IMG/VR virus record: IMGVR_UViG_3300034063_000056
Span: 1 to 24,959 of that record
Length of the DNA: 24,959 nucleotides
From: a virus
Reading direction: 5' to 3' (one strand)
In this document: positions 6,245-24,959 of the stretch, one piece after another
Layout of the letters: each line of letters opens with the position of its first letter
Position numbering within the stretch: position 1 is the first letter of the stretch
The notes under the pieces: model-generated
What the model was told of the DNA's origin: nothing
Database searches by the model: none
What the model saw: only the letters and a program-made list of their open reading frames with translations
Translations under genes and position numbers: made by a program

Positions 6245-7324
6245 CTAGACTCCCTGTAGTGTCGGCACAGAGGCTATCGACACAGTTAATATGACTGACG
6301 GCGTGGCCGGGCGAACTGGTCCAGTTTTTGCAGCAATGTACTCAATTGTAGTGGAGGTGTCAGTAGTTGCCCACATCAACTCGATGTACTCGTCTGCGGC
6401 TAAATCGATGAACAAGTTCAACGCGCCGATCAAGTGGCCGTCTATGGAACCGTGCCGATTGGGCACGGAAAACTGGCTGTTGGAGTCAGGCACATCAACC
6501 CCGTTTTTACGCATCCAAACGTCAATGTCGTGGATGTTGTTGTCGGTGTTGACCATCTGGACGCTGAACTGAATGTTGTACGTTCCGGCAATTTCGCACC
6601 TGACCTTGGACTTGCAGGTGCCGGTGATGGTTGTAGACGCTACGGTCTGCGACACGCTGACCTGATAGGTGCCGGTGCTGCCATCCGTGCCTGTTAGCTG
6701 GGACACAATGCGAGTTCCAGCCGTAACGCCAGTGCCCGTGATCACCATGCCAGGGTAAATTGGCCCCGAGGTGATCGCTGTCACCGTCATGGTGGTTGTG
6801 GCAATCGACGCAGTGAACACGGCTGTGCGGTCTTCTATCGTGACGTTTTTGCTGAACTGCGTGGTGTCGTACAGCAGCGGGTACGCCGTAGTTGTTGAGC
6901 CGTCTGGCTGGTTGGCCGTGCTGTAAAAGGAGCCGTATACAAACTGCGGAATCTGCGGCGTGGTAATCGGCGCAGATTGAAGCGCGTCGATCTGCTTTTG
7001 CATCTCGGCTATCTGCGACACCAAAGCCGAGCAGCAGTCTGCCAACGCTTCTGCTTGGATTTGCTTAGCCAACTCATTGCTCAAATCAGCCGCAGGCGGC
7101 AGCGTCTGCAACTCTTGCCGCACGGCGTCGAGCGCAGCCTCAAGAGACGCAATCGTTGACTCGGCGCTGAACGTAAGCCCTGAGTCATCAACGACTGCCG
7201 TGGCCGCATCGTTGAGCGACAAGAAGAACAAGTACCAAGCCCTGTCGATCAACCCGGTGCGCGGGTCGATCAACGGCACCCGTGGCGGGGTGATTGGCGT
7301 CGGCGTTGCGTTAGGGCTAGGCAT
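6245..7324 (-). CDS. tail needle / fibre-like protein with inserted beta module
   Basis: A 359-residue protein. The N-terminus (residues 13-36, [18 protein letters not shown] and on) looks like an anchor. Residues about 55-117 form a coiled coil. Residues about 128-168 and 237-355 make a beta-rich head ending in a jelly-roll-like domain ([30 protein letters not shown]). Residues about 169-236 are a separate Thr/Gly-rich module that appears inserted in the head domain. It follows the gp10-like gene, the place of the P22 gp26 needle (233 residues); Sf6-type needles also end in a knob. I infer a trimeric needle or fibre that plugs the tail. A peripheral fibre is the main alternative. Confidence 0.65.
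6617..6820 (-). other. putative mobile beta module inside the needle/fibre gene
   Basis: These codons encode about 68 residues running from [13 protein letters not shown] through [13 protein letters not shown] to [18 protein letters not shown] recognise this pattern as a recurrent exchangeable module in unrelated phage tail and fibre proteins. It separates SKNVTIED from [12 protein letters not shown], which together look like one continuous jelly-roll. Boundaries are approximate. Confidence 0.55.
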
Positions 7325-9717: not shown

Positions 9718-10173
9718 TTAAGAAGCGACAAGAGGAACGGAGAACCAGTCTGTGGTGTCATACGCCACAAACCAGCAAGCCGTTTTCGCAGCCATCGAGA
9801 AAGCCGTAGTGCCCGCGACGCCGTTGATTTTGGCGCTGCCGGGAGCGTAGACCTTCAAAATAGCGTTGGCCGTATCGTCGTTCTTAACCACAAGCAGTCG
9901 GCCGGCCGTGGGAGCAGGCAGCACAACACCTTTGGTGGCGTCAGCTGCAGTCACCCAGTTGAACGAAGCCGTCATAGCCGTCGCGTCGGCGCGGGTCGAA
10001 CCCGCAGCCGCCGGTTTGGCGACGTCGACGCTCAGGGAGGCGCCGGTCAGCGTGGGGCTGGACAGCGTGCCGCCGGTGATCGTGGAGTTGGAAATAGCGG
10101 CACCCGTAATCGTGGTCCCTGCGACAAGCTCGGGATCGGAAAACGCGACGCCTACTGCTTTAGTATTTGGCAT
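9718..10173 (-). CDS. putative virion surface / decoration protein
   Basis: A 151-residue protein starting MPNTKAVGVAFSDPELVAGT. The first 50 residues contain a short repetitive beta pattern (TITGAAISNSTITGGTLS). The rest is a compact beta-rich domain with ATKGVVLPAPTAGRLLVV and ACWFVAYDTTDWFSV. Start ATG 10173 is chosen because AAAAGGA precedes it and the longer in-frame reading (from 10284) would cross the UUCG hairpin and the previous gene. It is one of two small beta proteins right after the coat gene, where decoration proteins often lie. Decoration or head-fibre function is inferred from position and fold. Confidence 0.72.
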   Translation of the reverse strand: MPNTKAVGVAFSDPELVAGTTITGAAISNSTITGGTLSSPTLTGASLSVDVAKPAAAGSTRADATAMTASFNWVTAADATKGVVLPAPTAGRLLVVKNDDTANAILKVYAPGSAKINGVAGTTAFSMAAKTACWFVAYDTTDWFSVPLVAS

Positions 10174-10182
10174 GATATGTCC

Positions 10183-10209
10183 TTTTAAAAACAGGAGGCC
10201 GAAGCCTCC
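10183..10209 (-). terminator. UUCG-tetraloop hairpin with T-tract
   Basis: On the minus strand GGAGGC-TTCG-GCCTCC (10209 down to 10194) is followed by TGTTTTT. A stem closed by a UUCG loop plus a T-run is a standard intrinsic terminator. It lies between the 142-residue and the 151-residue virion genes inside the late operon, so partial readthrough or RNA stabilisation is likelier than a full stop. Confidence 0.75.
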
Positions 10210-10216
10210 CGTTAGC

Positions 10217-10645
10217 TTAGACGCGGTACAGAGTCCAAGTCGTGTCGCTGGTTTTACGAGCGATAAACGAGGCCGAAGTACCATCGTTGATGGTCAGCGA
10301 GCCAACAATCGTCCAGCCCGTGCCAGTGCCAGCGGCCATCGTGATGTCGCCGGTCGAGGTGCCAATGTTGACCACCACCCAGTTAAAGGTGCTGCCAACT
10401 TTAGCACTGGAGACCAGATCGTTCACACCAGTGACGCCGCCTGCTGTAACCACGATAGGCATCGTGTAGATCGTAGCAGTGGTGCCAGGATTGGCGATCA
10501 GAATACCGCCGGTTACTTCAGCAGCGGTCAGAGTGACGGCGGAAGTGCCAGTTTCAGTAGTAGGGGCGGGCAAGTAGCCGATGACGGGTTCGTTGAGGTT
10601 GCCGTCGCCGACTTGATAGCCGCCTGCGCCATTAGGGAGAGCCAT
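10217..10645 (-). CDS. putative virion surface / decoration protein
   Basis: A 142-residue protein starting MALPNGAGGYQVGDGNLNEP, an N-terminus I recall from small phage proteins encoded just after coat genes. The remainder is beta-rich with Thr/Gly/Val strands and ends in IARKTSDTTWTLYRV. No catalytic motif is seen. The leader contains GAAAGGAA before the ATG. It is flanked on both sides by UUCG hairpins, implying its transcript level is set separately from the coat upstream and the 151-residue gene downstream. A head-decoration role is inferred from position, size and composition. Confidence 0.72.
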   Translation of the reverse strand: MALPNGAGGYQVGDGNLNEPVIGYLPAPTTETGTSAVTLTAAEVTGGILIANPGTTATIYTMPIVVTAGGVTGVNDLVSSAKVGSTFNWVVVNIGTSTGDITMAAGTGTGWTIVGSLTINDGTSASFIARKTSDTTWTLYRV

Positions 10646-10677
10646 GATAAATTCCTTTCAAAAAGTTACGAATTGAA

Positions 10678-21732: not shown

Positions 21733-23264
21733 TACGCCCCCATCCAACTGGTTACAGCCCCGCCACTATACCCGCTTGCGGTGCGGATGTGTGACTTTGG
21801 CTCACGATACTCTCGGCTGGCGACAGGATACGCAAACGTCAGCGCGATGGCGTCTGCTGCGTCCGGTGAGGCCAGACCACGGGCTTTCATGTCCTTTTTG
21901 GACTCTAGATAGATCGTACCACGCGAATCGGGCTTCATCTTAGGCGAAATCAGGTCACTTTTCAAGAACCTGTCGTTGGGCACGCTGGCTGTTTTCAGCC
22001 AATCGCGCATATCACCCCACATTTCAGCCCGTTTGTTGCCGTACATAATGGGGTTTTTGGCCTTGTTGCCAAAGTTAACTCCCCTGACCTTGTACCGCTG
22101 CTCTTTAAGCCGGTCCACGACCCCCGCCCCCAGCCCGCCCTCGTCGATGTTGACCAACGACGGCTTAAATTCCTCAATCGCGTCGATAACGTGCCCGACC
22201 ACCGTCATGGTGTCGTCGCCCCGGTGCCGGATCAGCTTGACGATGTCGCGCCCCTGCCGCACGGCAATGACCGTTGCGTCTGCCCCGAACCGCGCCGGGT
22301 CTACGCCGATCACAATTGGTGCCGACTGGTCCATATGCTTGGCCCGTTTCATCGCCTCATCGACCACGCCAATACTGATGAACTGATCGTCGCCCTCGTT
22401 CGGAAACTGACCGTACACCTCGACGTGCGCTTGTGAAGAGTCCGGCCCGTATTCCGCGATGATCTGCTCGTAAACCGCCTTGTCGGTGCCCTCGACCGTC
22501 CTGGCGTCCACTATCTTGGACGCCCAAAACTCCCGTTTGCTGTTAAACGCCTCGTAGAAGTACCCGGTGTTGCGGCGCGGGTTGGAAAACGCCAGCCAAA
22601 AGCGGTTTGGCGTGTTCTCCGTAAAGAATCCACTGGTCACCGCCCAGATCGAGTCGTCGATACCACTGGCCTCGTCGAAGATCACCATCACGCCGTCAAA
22701 GTTATGCACGCCAGCGTAGGCGTCCGGGTTCTCGGCCGACCATAGCCGCCCCTCGACGCCCCAGTATCTAGTGCCTTTCTTCAGGTCGCGCTCAACCAGC
22801 TCTGTCAGCCACTTGGCCGGCATCAGTCTGGTAGCGCTTACTTCGAACCAATGGCTGTTGATCGACATCGCCAGCCACTTTGTCAGCTCGGCCCAAGTGA
22901 TACTGCGGAGCTGGCTTTCTGAGTTGGCCGAAATAATGGTCGTCGAGCCGATGCGCGTGGACAGCATCCAGTCCGTGATCCAAGACACTAAGGCCGACTT
23001 GCCAATACCCCGGCCCGAACTGACCGCCAGACGCAGCACGTCGAAGTCCAGCTTGCCGCCGTTCTTCTTGATGTGCTCGGCCATAGTCGCGAGCACCTCG
23101 CGCTGCCACTTGCGCGGGCCAGTGAAGTGCTCCAGCGGCGTGCCCTTGACGCCCCACGGATACGCGAACATCACAAACGCCAGCGGGTTGTCCTTGATCG
23201 CCGGGCTCCATAGCCGAGCCATCAGCTCCTGCTCATCCTGCGCGCTGTAACGTGTGGTCTGCAT
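21732..23264 (-). CDS. terL: terminase large subunit (ATPase-nuclease)
   Basis: A 510-residue protein (P22 gp2 is 499). Walker A is GRGIGKS (84-90), with Walker B VMVIFDEAS (192-200) carrying D197 and E198. The RNase-H-like nuclease has D322 (IGVDPARFGADATVIA), D374 (NIDEGGLG) and a third acidic residue at D468 or D471 (SPDAADAIALTF). It pumps DNA through the portal and cuts the concatemer; P22-like neighbours suggest headful packaging, which is inference. Its ATG lies inside the TerS 3' end with a 32-base overlap. All key motifs are intact. Confidence 0.95.
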   Translation of the reverse strand: MQTTRYSAQDEQELMARLWSPAIKDNPLAFVMFAYPWGVKGTPLEHFTGPRKWQREVLATMAEHIKKNGGKLDFDVLRLAVSSGRGIGKSALVSWITDWMLSTRIGSTTIISANSESQLRSITWAELTKWLAMSINSHWFEVSATRLMPAKWLTELVERDLKKGTRYWGVEGRLWSAENPDAYAGVHNFDGVMVIFDEASGIDDSIWAVTSGFFTENTPNRFWLAFSNPRRNTGYFYEAFNSKREFWASKIVDARTVEGTDKAVYEQIIAEYGPDSSQAHVEVYGQFPNEGDDQFISIGVVDEAMKRAKHMDQSAPIVIGVDPARFGADATVIAVRQGRDIVKLIRHRGDDTMTVVGHVIDAIEEFKPSLVNIDEGGLGAGVVDRLKEQRYKVRGVNFGNKAKNPIMYGNKRAEMWGDMRDWLKTASVPNDRFLKSDLISPKMKPDSRGTIYLESKKDMKARGLASPDAADAIALTFAYPVASREYREPKSHIRTASGYSGGAVTSWMGA

Positions 23265-23685
23265 GTTGTAGCACTTGGCTTGGGTTGTTCTCGATTACGT
23301 CTACGACGTCCAGTACGCGCCGCTCGGCCTCTTGTAGCGCCGCTGTGATGCTGATGGACTGGTTCACATCTACTGTAATGGCCTGCTTGGCTACCCAGCC
23401 GTGGACGTTCTGGAGGATCGCCAGCGCCGCTTTGGCGTCGCCCTGCGCTGCGGCGTCGTGCAGCAGGTGGCTCATCTCCAGCTCGCCCTCGGCGCGGCCC
23501 TTGAGTTCAGCGTACTCCGCGATCTCGTCAAACTGCTTGAGCCTGGCGTACTCCTTGGGCAACATGCCTGCGGCCAACGCCAGGTTGTCGCCCTTAAGGC
23601 CGAGCTTGGCAGCCTTGTAGATGCGATGCAGCCGGTCCTCAGTCGCTTGCAACTGACGCGGCTCATATGGCAGGGTCTCGAACAT
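23233..23685 (-). CDS. terS: terminase small subunit
   Basis: A 150-residue protein starting MFETLPYEPRQLQATEDRLH. It is helical throughout, with a conserved-looking core (GLKGDNLALAAGMLPKEYAR, then FDEIAEYAELKGRAEGELEM) typical of TerS-like packaging proteins, and a C-terminal coiled region. P22 TerS (gp3) is 162 residues. It would recognise the packaging site and load TerL. ATG 23685 is preferred to the in-frame TTG at 23691 because it overlaps the nuclease stop as TAATG. The assignment rests on this pattern plus its place directly before TerL; no pac site can be picked by eye. Confidence 0.78.
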   Translation of the reverse strand: MFETLPYEPRQLQATEDRLHRIYKAAKLGLKGDNLALAAGMLPKEYARLKQFDEIAEYAELKGRAEGELEMSHLLHDAAAQGDAKAALAILQNVHGWVAKQAITVDVNQSISITAALQEAERRVLDVVDVIENNPSQVLQHADHTLQRAG

Positions 23686-24167
23686 TACCAAAGCTCCCGC
23701 TCAGCGTTTGCGCGCGCTTGGGCAGCGTCTTCTATTGTGTAGAAGTTCCCTAAAAATTTTCGATTGCCGTTAGCCACGATGTCCGCTCTCCAAGCTTTTT
23801 TTAGGCGCCTACCATTACGCAGTGGTCGCAAGGATACACCTTTTACGCCAGATTGGCTACGCCGCTGCGGGCCCGAGTTGTTGGCGTTTTCAGAGCGCCC
23901 TACGTCGCGTAAGTTTTCTATACGGTTGTCGGTGCGGTTGCGGTTTATATGGTCAATCACACCCGCAGGCCACTGCTTGTACACATACAGCCACGCTAGT
24001 CGCTGAGCTGTGTGCGTTCGGCCGTTAAACGCTATTTGCACATACCCGTCTCGGCTAAGGCCACCAACAACTGAGCCAACGGGCTTAGACCCCCACTTCT
24101 TTTTTCGCGTAAACACGCCAGTTGCGGGGTCGTAGCTAAACGCAGCGCGTAAAAGTTCATGTTCCAT
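23685..24167 (-). CDS. HNH endonuclease with AP2-like DNA-binding domain
   Basis: A 160-residue protein. Residues about 55-98 carry an HNH_3-type motif, IDHINRNRTDNRIENLRDVG with H73 and the NRxxNL segment, followed by RSENANN. Residues about 105-155 (SGVKGVSLRPL, AWRADIVANGNRKFLGNF) resemble an AP2 DNA-binding domain, the usual layout of free-standing homing-type HNH nucleases. It is the first gene of the leftward late operon and is followed by TerS and TerL; HNH enzymes beside terminases are reported to help packaging cleavage, so it is either a packaging helper or a homing element. The ATG lies 7 bases below a TATAAT box, so the transcript may be leaderless. Confidence 0.85.
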   Translation of the reverse strand: MEHELLRAAFSYDPATGVFTRKKKWGSKPVGSVVGGLSRDGYVQIAFNGRTHTAQRLAWLYVYKQWPAGVIDHINRNRTDNRIENLRDVGRSENANNSGPQRRSQSGVKGVSLRPLRNGRRLKKAWRADIVANGNRKFLGNFYTIEDAAQARANAERELW

Positions 24168-24202
24168 GTCGCAATTATAGGGCTTGCGTTTTTAAATTTC
24201 AA
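24167..24202 (-). promoter_or_regulatory. strong leftward sigma70 promoter for the late operon
   Basis: On the minus strand -35 TTGAAA (24202-24197, 5 of 6) and -10 TATAAT (24179-24174, perfect) have the ideal 17-bp spacing, with an A/T-tract (24203-24211) upstream that could act as an UP element. The expected start, about 7 bases past the -10, is base 24167, the A of the HNH ATG. Confidence 0.8.
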
Positions 24203-24246
24203 TAAAAAAATTCGCAGTTTTTGTAGCCCCTCCGCTGCCGTGACCT

Positions 24247-24271
24247 CCCGGTCCCCGGCCCCCTCCCCCCC
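24247..24271 (-). other. potential G-quadruplex tract
   Basis: The minus strand has G-runs of 7, 5, 4 and 3 separated by 1, 2 and 3 bases, meeting the standard G3+N1-7 rule; the plus strand could form an i-motif. It lies upstream of the leftward promoter, 45-75 bp from its -35, and next to the repeat cluster. Confidence 0.6.
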
Positions 24272-24319
24272 TCGGTTTTGGCCGGCAGCACCTGGCCGCG
24301 CGCCGCTTGGGCGACGGCC

Positions 24320-24346
24320 GTGGACCATGTGGACAATGTGGACCAT
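24320..24346 (+). repeat. tandem 9-bp repeats, block 1 (3 units)
   Basis: Three head-to-tail units, GTGGACCAT, GTGGACAAT and GTGGACCAT, at 24320, 24329 and 24338. The exact 9-mer TGTGGACAA (complement TTGTCCACA) lies at 24328-24336, a DnaA-box-like sequence. Confidence 0.85.
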
Positions 24347-24395
24347 GGCCCGACAGTCGCATGGCTTGCGTGCTGCGCGGCTGCGCGCCAGTCGC

Positions 24396-24413
24396 GTGGA
24401 CAATGTGGACAAT
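24396..24413 (+). repeat. tandem 9-bp repeats, block 2 (2 units)
   Basis: Two identical units GTGGACAAT at 24396 and 24405, starting 76 bp after block 1. TGTGGACAA occurs at 24404-24412. The preceding GGCTTGCGTG (24363-24372) recurs at 24430-24439 before block 3, so blocks and flanks may derive from one duplication. Confidence 0.85.
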
Positions 24414-24454
24414 GGCCGGTCAAGCGCAAGGCTTGCGTGGCGTGGGCCAAGGAC

Positions 24455-24488
24455 GTGGATTTGTGGACAATGTGGACATGTGGACAAT
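24455..24488 (+). repeat. tandem 9-bp-type repeats, block 3 (4 units)
   Basis: Four consecutive units, GTGGATTT, GTGGACAAT, GTGGACAT and GTGGACAAT, at 24455, 24463, 24472 and 24480; two are one base short. TGTGGACAA occurs at 24462-24470 and 24479-24487. Confidence 0.85.
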
Positions 24489-24547
24489 CGATTTCAAGTC
24501 GGTCAACCCCCTTTGGGGCGCGGGCTGACGGCGCGGCCCATTGTCAC

Positions 24548-24567
24548 TACTGTATATCCATACAGTA
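24548..24567. promoter_or_regulatory. perfect LexA (SOS) box
   Basis: TACTGTATATCCATACAGTA is an exact inverted repeat with 8-bp arms and matches CTGT-N8-ACAG, the LexA operator of beta- and gammaproteobacteria (CTGT 24550-24553, ACAG 24562-24565). It heads an AT-rich stretch to about 24602. The promoter it controls is not clear; a TATACT (minus strand, 24569-24564) overlaps it but lacks a good -35. Confidence 0.8.
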
Positions 24568-24602
24568 TATTTTTTATCTCTCTTTAGACTTATAAACTAA
24601 TA
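24556..24602. other. AT-rich stretch, possible DNA-unwinding element
   Basis: A conspicuously A/T-dominated segment in an otherwise GC-rich region, placed between forward (24320-24488) and inverted (24603-24617) GTGGAC repeats. Placement beside DnaA-box-like repeats is what an unwinding element would show. It also holds half of the LexA palindrome and may simply be promoter DNA. Confidence 0.4.
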
Positions 24603-24617
24603 GTCCACATTGTCCAC
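24603..24617 (-). repeat. inverted pair of 9-bp-spaced GTGGAC units
   Basis: GTCCAC at 24603 and 24612, separated by ATT, is the reverse orientation of the same unit with the same 9-bp spacing; TTGTCCACA is exact at 24610-24618. The repeats therefore flank the AT-rich stretch in opposite orientations. Confidence 0.8.
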
Positions 24618-24640
24618 ATAGCCCATTTCCCCAATGGCGC

Positions 24641-24660
24641 GACGTGGACAACGCCACGTC
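24641..24660. repeat. inverted repeat containing a GTGGAC unit
   Basis: GACGTGG (24641-24647) and CCACGTC (24654-24660) are exact 7-bp arms around ACAACG; the left arm is part of CGTGGACAA. It could be an operator or a short hairpin. Confidence 0.6.
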
Positions 24661-24663
24661 AAA

Positions 24664-24696
24664 AACGCTATCCACGCATGGTCCAACGCTATCCAC
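24664..24696 (+). repeat. 21-bp-spaced direct repeats AACGCTATCCAC
   Basis: The 12-mer occurs at 24664-24675 and 24685-24696, exactly two helical turns apart. The second continues to CTATCCACA, one base from the classical DnaA box TTATCCACA. Both lie just upstream of the rightward promoter. Confidence 0.75.
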
Positions 24697-24708
24697 AACC
24701 CTACTATC

Positions 24709-24724
24709 TGTCGCAAACGTGACA
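24709..24724. promoter_or_regulatory. imperfect inverted repeat upstream of the rightward promoter
   Basis: TGTCGC and GTGACA (5 of 6 pairs) are separated by four bases and end 10 bp before the -35 box. It is a weak operator candidate. Confidence 0.3.
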
Positions 24725-24734
24725 ACTAGGGGGC

Positions 24735-24769
24735 TTGACAAGATAAGAGATTCCCTTACACTGTGGCTT
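24735..24769 (+). promoter_or_regulatory. rightward sigma70 promoter
   Basis: -35 TTGACA (24735-24740, perfect) and -10 TACACT (24757-24762, 4 of 6) are 16 bp apart, the same spacing as the scaffold promoter. The start should fall near 24768-24769, about 40 bases before the ATG at 24809. Confidence 0.72.
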
Positions 24770-24781
24770 CGCCTCGGCGAA
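24768..24781. promoter_or_regulatory. operator-like palindrome at the rightward start site
   Basis: TTCGCC-TC-GGCGAA is an exact 14-bp inverted repeat lying on the predicted +1 to +13. That is a usual place for a repressor operator; as RNA it could fold into a 5-bp stem with a CTCG loop. Confidence 0.5.
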
Positions 24782-24808
24782 CCGATAAACACACCTGGAG
24801 TAAACGAC

Positions 24809-24959
24809 ATGACACCCAAGCAGCTAGCCAAATGGATCGACAGTCTGCCGGACGCGACTGAGATTTACATTCAAGACGATTGGACCGCGCAGCAGCGCGG
24901 CGCCGTGCAAGCCAAAGTAAACGCCGACAAGGCGCGCTACGCGGCGCTGCTCGACGCGC
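24809..24959 (+). CDS. first gene of the rightward module, partial
   Basis: ATG 24809 follows GGAG with an 8-base spacer and sits behind a TTGACA promoter. The 50 visible residues begin MTPKQLAKWIDSLPDATEIY and continue with a charged, Ala-rich helix (VQAKVNADKARYAALLDA) to the window edge without a stop. The acidic middle (QDDWTAQQRG) and helix do not match a family I recognise. As the first product of this promoter it is a candidate early regulator or replication accessory protein, but only its position supports that. Confidence 0.75.
   Translation, partial: MTPKQLAKWIDSLPDATEIYIQDDWTAQQRGAVQAKVNADKARYAALLDA

Follow-up and report, generated by a model that had tools for sequence, protein, structure and literature searches.

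The C-terminal domain of the helicases SaPI Rep and SCCmec Cch2 recognizes short iterons at an origin near the helicase's own gene, and two hexamers have been proposed for the SaPI origin (origin-related passages of PMC7581432, the former point citing Ubeda et al. 2007). According to the parts of PMC4234260 that deal with P4 alpha, this protein binds repeats at its origin through a winged-helix domain. Here, we analyze an array of short repeats at positions 24320 to 24696 of a virus DNA of 24,959 bases, which constitutes the entire IMG/VR record IMGVR_UViG_3300034063_000056, a genome fragment, and is referred to as the window. Computational comparison with relatives shows that the position and layout of this array are conserved and that its repeat unit varies together with a few residues at the C terminus of a phage primase-helicase. 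We consider it highly probable that DNA replication of a P22/epsilon15-like podovirus starts at this array and that the 9-bp iterons of the array are read by the winged helix of the phage's own primase-helicase.

An iteron origin is the interpretation that needs the fewest assumptions, and the helicase-primase probably works like SaPI Rep or P4 alpha. As far as the cited parts of the two sources go, it resembles SaPI Rep and Cch2 as a replicative helicase with a putative C-terminal recognition of short origin repeats, and P4 alpha in the putative pairing of a winged-helix domain with origin repeats. However, SaPI Rep and Cch2 belong to islands with a separate primase, whereas here a single phage protein combines primase, helicase, and predicted winged helix. 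Also in contrast to these systems, the candidate origin lies at least about 2.5 kb from the helicase gene, beside terS, and consists of convergent 9-bp tandems around an AT-rich gap of near-constant length. P4 alpha possesses a bacterial (Toprim) primase, whereas the N-terminal part of the phage protein matches the RepB_primase family (PF16793) of the archaeo-eukaryotic primase (AEP) type. Because the primase domain differs, we place the phage helicase-primase outside the P4 alpha family; sequence comparison revealed no similarity to the P4 origin-binding domain.

AEP primase, superfamily 3 (SF3)-type helicase, and winged helix are likewise combined in pRN1 ORF904 and the replication proteins of Bordetella phage BIP-1, a class in which no origin iterons were found and for which a stem-loop origin was proposed (PMC4234260). 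In contrast, the origin candidate described here is a clear iteron array. NrS-1 polymerase, which alone in the PDB matched the helicase domain by sequence, uses an 8-nucleotide site present in two copies, and a winged-helix iteron array is not described in the corresponding sections of PMC7102993. In the phage-satellite conflict involving PLE RepA and ICP1 Odn, the iterons of the origin covary with the DNA-binding domain of the initiator, and both behave as exchangeable modules, but PLE RepA is a RepA_N-type initiator with semi-palindromic iterons of approximately 30 bp and is unrelated to the helicase-primase studied here (PMC8263062). Such a pairing of helicase and iterons is not described in the consulted papers that name DUF5906 with origins.

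A conserved repeat array upstream of the small terminase gene

Related loci were collected from IMG/VR, 80 of them by the large terminase and several hundred more by the helicase, and the array was looked for upstream of the small terminase (TerS) gene where the helicase-terminase region was complete, that is, in 196 distinct and 72 held-out loci. An array was present at the homologous place in the great majority of these approximately 270 relatives, located between the early genes and the TerS gene and upstream of the latter in all relatives studied. This comparison, proposed as a check in an earlier sequence-only reading of the window, revealed conservation of position, pitch, and convergent layout, but not of the unit sequence. 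The repeat units fall into the dialects GTCCAC, ACCCAA, ACCCAC/ACTCAC (in 10-bp steps), GCCAAC, GTCCAT, and GACTAC, and are spelled in the relatives as GTCCACATT, ACCCAAATG, ACCCACAAT/ACTCACAAT (10-bp steps), GCCAACATA, GTCCATA, GACTACATG, and TGACAATAT. Near-identical flanks can enclose different dialects, as seen in L011 and L013 versus L012.

The arms of the array converge in all 67 scorable relatives, which represent two dialects, and enclose a gap with a median length of 113 bp (interquartile range, 104 to 114 bp; 117 bp in the window), whose richest 40 bp contain about 82% AT versus a background of 62%. Units of the respective dialect are about 11- to 50-fold concentrated at the array in eight long relatives. 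Wing classes represented by a sufficient number of loci show a pitch of 9 bp. The exception is the class carrying leucine at position 723 of the helicase, whose arrays have a pitch of 10 bp, as observed in L246, L265, L267, and other loci with the wing GLLKSR. One locus, L277 (IMGVR_UViG_3300047561_000517; upstream of TerS at 6297), contains a hybrid array with ACCCAA units proximal to the gap and GTCCAC units farther out, and its helicase wing is of the ACCCAA type, matching the gap-proximal part. A recent crossover would leave such a hybrid if the gap-proximal units are the ones that matter, and L277 thus has the appearance expected of a natural recombinant origin.

In the window, the array comprises nine GTGGAC, one GTGGAT, two GTCCAC, and two ATCCAC units, whose arms converge on the AT-rich gap. 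Three blocks on the plus strand, directly visible in the sequence, form the left arm: GTGGAC at 24320, 24329, and 24338 in 9-bp steps (24320 to 24343); GTGGACAATGTGGAC with units at 24396 and 24405 (24396 to 24410); and GTGGAT at 24455 followed by GTGGAC at 24463, 24472, and 24480 in steps of 8, 9, and 8 bp (24455 to 24485). Neighboring units are mostly 9 bp apart, but the steps from 24455 to 24463 and from 24472 to 24480 measure 8 bp, and longer gaps separate the blocks. The gap proper (24486 to 24602), a candidate DNA unwinding element, is AT-rich in its right half, with an AT content of up to 80% in 40-bp windows near 24561 to 24606. The opposing arm is the inverted tandem pair GTCCACATTGTCCAC on the minus strand (24603 to 24617; units at 24603 and 24612). 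A lone plus-strand GTGGAC unit (24644 to 24649) lies right of the AT-rich stretch, and two outlying minus-strand ATCCAC units (24670 and 24691) are part of the repeated AACGCTATCCAC (24670 to 24696). The region thus combines several short direct repeats with an adjoining AT-rich element, as iteron origins do.

The 11 exact GTCCAC/GTGGAC units within 378 bp compare with a mean of 0.27 and a maximum of 4 in 1,000 shuffles of the region, and in 100 shuffles of the whole window no 378-bp stretch contained more than 4. The 9-mer TTGTCCACA occurs 17 times in the window at up to one mismatch, versus 5.6 expected occurrences. Much of this anatomy had been recognized in the sequence-only reading: the AT-rich stretch, the inverted GTCCAC pair at a 9-bp step to its right, the further related sites beyond (identified here as GTGGAC at 24644 and ATCCAC at 24670), and the exact copies of TTGTCCACA or its complement at 24328, 24404, 24462, 24479, and 24610 and of CTATCCACA at 24689 were all found again. 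Its count of nine GTGGAC units left of the AT-rich stretch needs correction. The three blocks stand, but they hold eight exact units and the GTGGAT at 24455, the ninth GTGGAC being the one on the right side.

Covariation of the helicase C terminus with the array dialect

Genes in the early region of the relatives code for a DUF2800 protein resembling exonucleases, a DNA polymerase of family A, and a primase-helicase of 765 residues (numbered here as in L014). When loci were sorted by dialect, the last 60 residues of the latter protein were seen to change with the array. Dialect labels were taken from the DNA alone before all 765 alignment columns of the helicase were scanned, and the three columns most informative on dialect were 727, 730, and 725. 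Within clades defined on helicase residues 1 to 640, columns 730, 728, 743, 725, and 727 rank highest, explaining as much as 0.77 of the information on dialect versus a permutation maximum of 0.24, and residues 725, 727, and 730 jointly account for 0.87 of the within-clade dialect information. The best columns of comparison proteins reached 0.22 (TerS), 0.18 (TerL), 0.27 (PolA), and 0.13 (the upstream gp210 gene).

On the tree of residues 1 to 640, wing and dialect changed in the same direction in about 12.4 independent pairs and in opposite directions in none, including seven of seven GTCCAC/ACCCAA pairs with the same direction. L100 and L091 are 99.8% identical over these residues, yet their wings and dialects differ. 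L100 combines the wing R-L-A-S-A-D-Y-P with ACCCAA units, and L091 the wing R-L-K-S-R-A-N-D with GTCCAC units. A prediction rule fixed beforehand was then applied to the 72 loci new to the analysis: wings of the form RxKSRxx[DE] correctly predicted a GTCCAC array in 18 of 18 held-out loci, and this dialect was absent from all 52 other classified loci. Replacement of D730 by glycine accompanies ACCCAC arrays in L345 and L347, an observation that refines the rule. R732 wings tend to accompany relaxed GNCCAC arrays. Covariation and held-out prediction together indicate a specificity of the repeats for the cognate C-terminal domain. Considering the focus on three wing residues, the lack of another universal gene, and the held-out result, the helicase is the best partner of the array by a wide margin.

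Predicted structure of the primase-helicase

The 765-residue protein matches RepB_primase at its N terminus, where no match to Toprim was detected, and the helicase family DUF5906. Its sole PDB sequence relatives are the NrS-1 polymerase helicase domains (6k9c and 6k9e; E value of 2.5e-4, residues 481 to 600), and no credible PDB sequence relatives were found for the C-terminal domain. The full-length AlphaFold2 model was poor overall (predicted local distance difference test [pLDDT] score of 61), and the C-terminal domain, which comprises about 110 residues, was therefore folded alone, using 82 relatives. The model obtained is a winged helix (pLDDT of 87, predicted template modeling score of 0.78), with which the full-length model agrees in its C-terminal part. 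In the numbering of this domain, helices 7 to 17, 32 to 42, and 51 to 61 are followed by strands 64 to 69 and 78 to 82 around a loop at 70 to 77, with a pLDDT of about 95 there, and the dialect residues 725 to 732 coincide with this modeled wing-tip loop. RFX1 is a protein that reads DNA with its wing. We take this likeness as a lead for a similar wing reading here, not as a test of it. The relevant part of PMC9611036 (its reference 41) presents RFX1 as a winged helix with an unusual DNA-binding mode.

Surroundings of the array and further relatives

The window encodes a P22-like structural module on the minus strand, comprising large terminase, portal, major head protein, and head closure. 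The small terminase gene (23233 to 23691, minus strand) was assigned from its conservation and its location beside the large terminase, since it has no family match. The array occupies an intergenic region (24168 to 24809) between a minus-strand open reading frame (ORF) for an HNH endonuclease (23685 to 24167) and a plus-strand gene starting at about 24810. The HNH ORF separates array and small terminase gene in the window, but the closest relatives, L007, L008, and L009, lack it in the corresponding position, and we therefore regard it as an insertion outside the origin; it is possibly a homing gene adjoining the origin. A sigma-70-like promoter, TTGACA-N16-TACACT (24735 to 24762, plus strand), is a pattern match that leads into the gene at about 24810. 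No RNA families were found in the window.

A near-perfect LexA/SOS-box-like palindrome, TACTGTATATCCATACAGTA, lies in the AT-rich part of the gap (24548 to 24567), and the pattern CTGT-N8-ACAG is present in 37 of the 196 related regions versus 1.9 expected. Host SOS control of the phage origin or of an adjacent promoter is possible, yet 11 long relatives contained no integrase (PF00589) match, and a temperate lifestyle is not supported.

No near DNA match to the array was found in isolated phages. The nearest annotated genomes, OR003940 and MW202483, contain different repeats, and the latter also has a different helicase tail. This more distant relative (L307, MW202483.1) carries many GTTTACAT and TGTTTACATAAACA repeats upstream of the terminase (10150 to 10650) together with a quite different wing, GMCFAPELSTKRH, and perhaps represents a further dialect. 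Helicase relatives in contigs of metagenome-assembled genomes labeled Rhodoferax or Betaproteobacteria (L326, L328, L329) suggest Burkholderiales hosts. These labels are shaky, as binning may be wrong and other helicase matches are labeled actinobacterial or Mucilaginibacter.

Discussion

Convergent iterons around an AT-rich gap and their covariation with the wing of a replicative protein suggest how replication might begin in these phages. Wing-tip residues 725, 727, 730, and 732 would read the repeat unit, with one protomer per 9-bp step, and the opposed arms would load helicase rings at both sides of the gap. The AT-rich gap would then melt, and the primase domain would begin synthesis. Binding, ring assembly, melting, and origin activity are steps that we infer from the layout of the array and the nature of its partner. 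The window has a pure GTCCAC dialect, and we therefore predict the wing R-x-K-S-R-x-x-D-x-K-K-H for its phage.

Several observations weigh against an origin read by the helicase wing. In eight long relatives, cumulative GC skew, a check proposed along with the initial suggestion of an origin-like array, did not turn consistently at the array; the suggestion is supported by the anatomy of the array and the identity of the covarying protein, and not by skew. The helicase gene of the window phage falls outside the contig, and a walk from L007 toward the helicase gene of the nearest relative of the window found no overlapping contig. The C-terminal winged helix is a predicted fold of the relatives and not of the window itself. 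Foldseek against the PDB returned mostly winged helices, but these matches were weak (best E value of 0.14), and the fold assignment therefore rests on the topology of the model. The rule for ACCCAA arrays was wrong in both held-out loci of a distant clade, one of which (L364) has a TGACAAT array, and the wing-dialect code is therefore incomplete. Seven loci with K-S-R wings have relaxed or mixed arrays, several of them together with R732. Finally, two genes adjoining the helicase, present in 32 and 71 loci, respectively, carry part of the signal, with best columns of 0.49 and 0.66, and linkage can mimic part of the wing-dialect covariation.

Among the alternatives, an operator function appears unlikely. 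The helicase winged helix or another phage protein would control divergent early and late promoters from the array, and replication would start elsewhere. The location of the array between divergent transcription units, the promoter-like site, and the LexA-like box at 24548 fit this explanation. However, the covarying protein is the replicative primase-helicase, and convergent tandem blocks around a gap of near-constant length fit ring loading better than an operator. Moreover, no other ORF family in the helicase-array interval occurs universally while also being restricted to a single dialect, and the two neighbors tested are absent from most loci.

It is rather improbable that linkage alone accounts for the covariation, in which case a third protein encoded between helicase and array would read the sites and be swapped along with the helicase tail. 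Helicase tail, small genes, and array lie within approximately 3 kb and recombine together, and part of the signal is found in nearby small genes. Nevertheless, no gene in this interval is shared by all loci, and the signal is sharpest at three residues of the wing tip instead of being spread across the C-terminal third. In addition, L118 and L139 have the helicase body and an adjoining stretch of about 1 kb in common, but differ in wing and dialect.

The sequence-only reading had offered host DnaA as one reader of the array, either opening a phage origin or being titrated by it, and iterons for a phage initiator as another option. DnaA boxes are suggested by TTGTCCACA, which differs by a single base from the E. 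coli DnaA box and is exact at five places, and by the AT-rich element between the arms, whereas TTATCCACA is not found in the window array. Decisive is the comparison with relatives: the DnaA-box 9-mer TTWTCCACA is present in all 59 GTCCAC arrays, whereas of the 137 same-place arrays in other dialects only 9 contain it, a pattern not expected of host DnaA boxes, and the dialect follows the phage protein, held-out loci included. Since these 9-mers are essentially confined to one dialect, both DnaA variants fall, and we rejected them as strongly disfavored and very improbable, whereas the option of iterons for a phage initiator is supported and a phage protein with exchangeable specificity, namely, the wing tip of the helicase-primase, is indicated. 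A packaging (pac/cos) site read by the small terminase is suggested by the location of the array directly upstream of TerS in all relatives, as pac sites are often in or near terS. It was likewise rejected as hardly credible, since identical TerS proteins accompany different dialects (L299/L293 and L286/L244) and the best TerS column holds 0.22 of the dialect information versus 0.77 for the wing.

Within the interpretation of the array as a helicase-read origin, we tentatively propose, with slightly less than even confidence, that the wing tip rather than the recognition helix spells the origin in a nearly modular amino acid-to-base code, which freshwater phages diversified by repeated swaps. 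In this code, K725 and D730 would go with GT at the start of the unit and R727 with a final C, whereas glycine, alanine, or serine at position 727 would go with a final A or T, and L723 with a pitch of 10 rather than 9 bp.

The array illustrates that DnaA-box-like repeats can mislead annotation. If our interpretation is true, the site where replication starts would be identified for a large freshwater phage family that is uncultured, and the class of AEP-primase/helicase/winged-helix proteins would gain an iteron origin where a stem-loop had been proposed (PMC4234260). Hundreds of natural initiator-origin pairs with matching dialects would make initiator specificity readable as a protein-DNA code and also serve to ask why origins diversify. 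If the proposed code is true, diversification of dialects would prevent co-infecting relatives or satellites from activating one another's origins.
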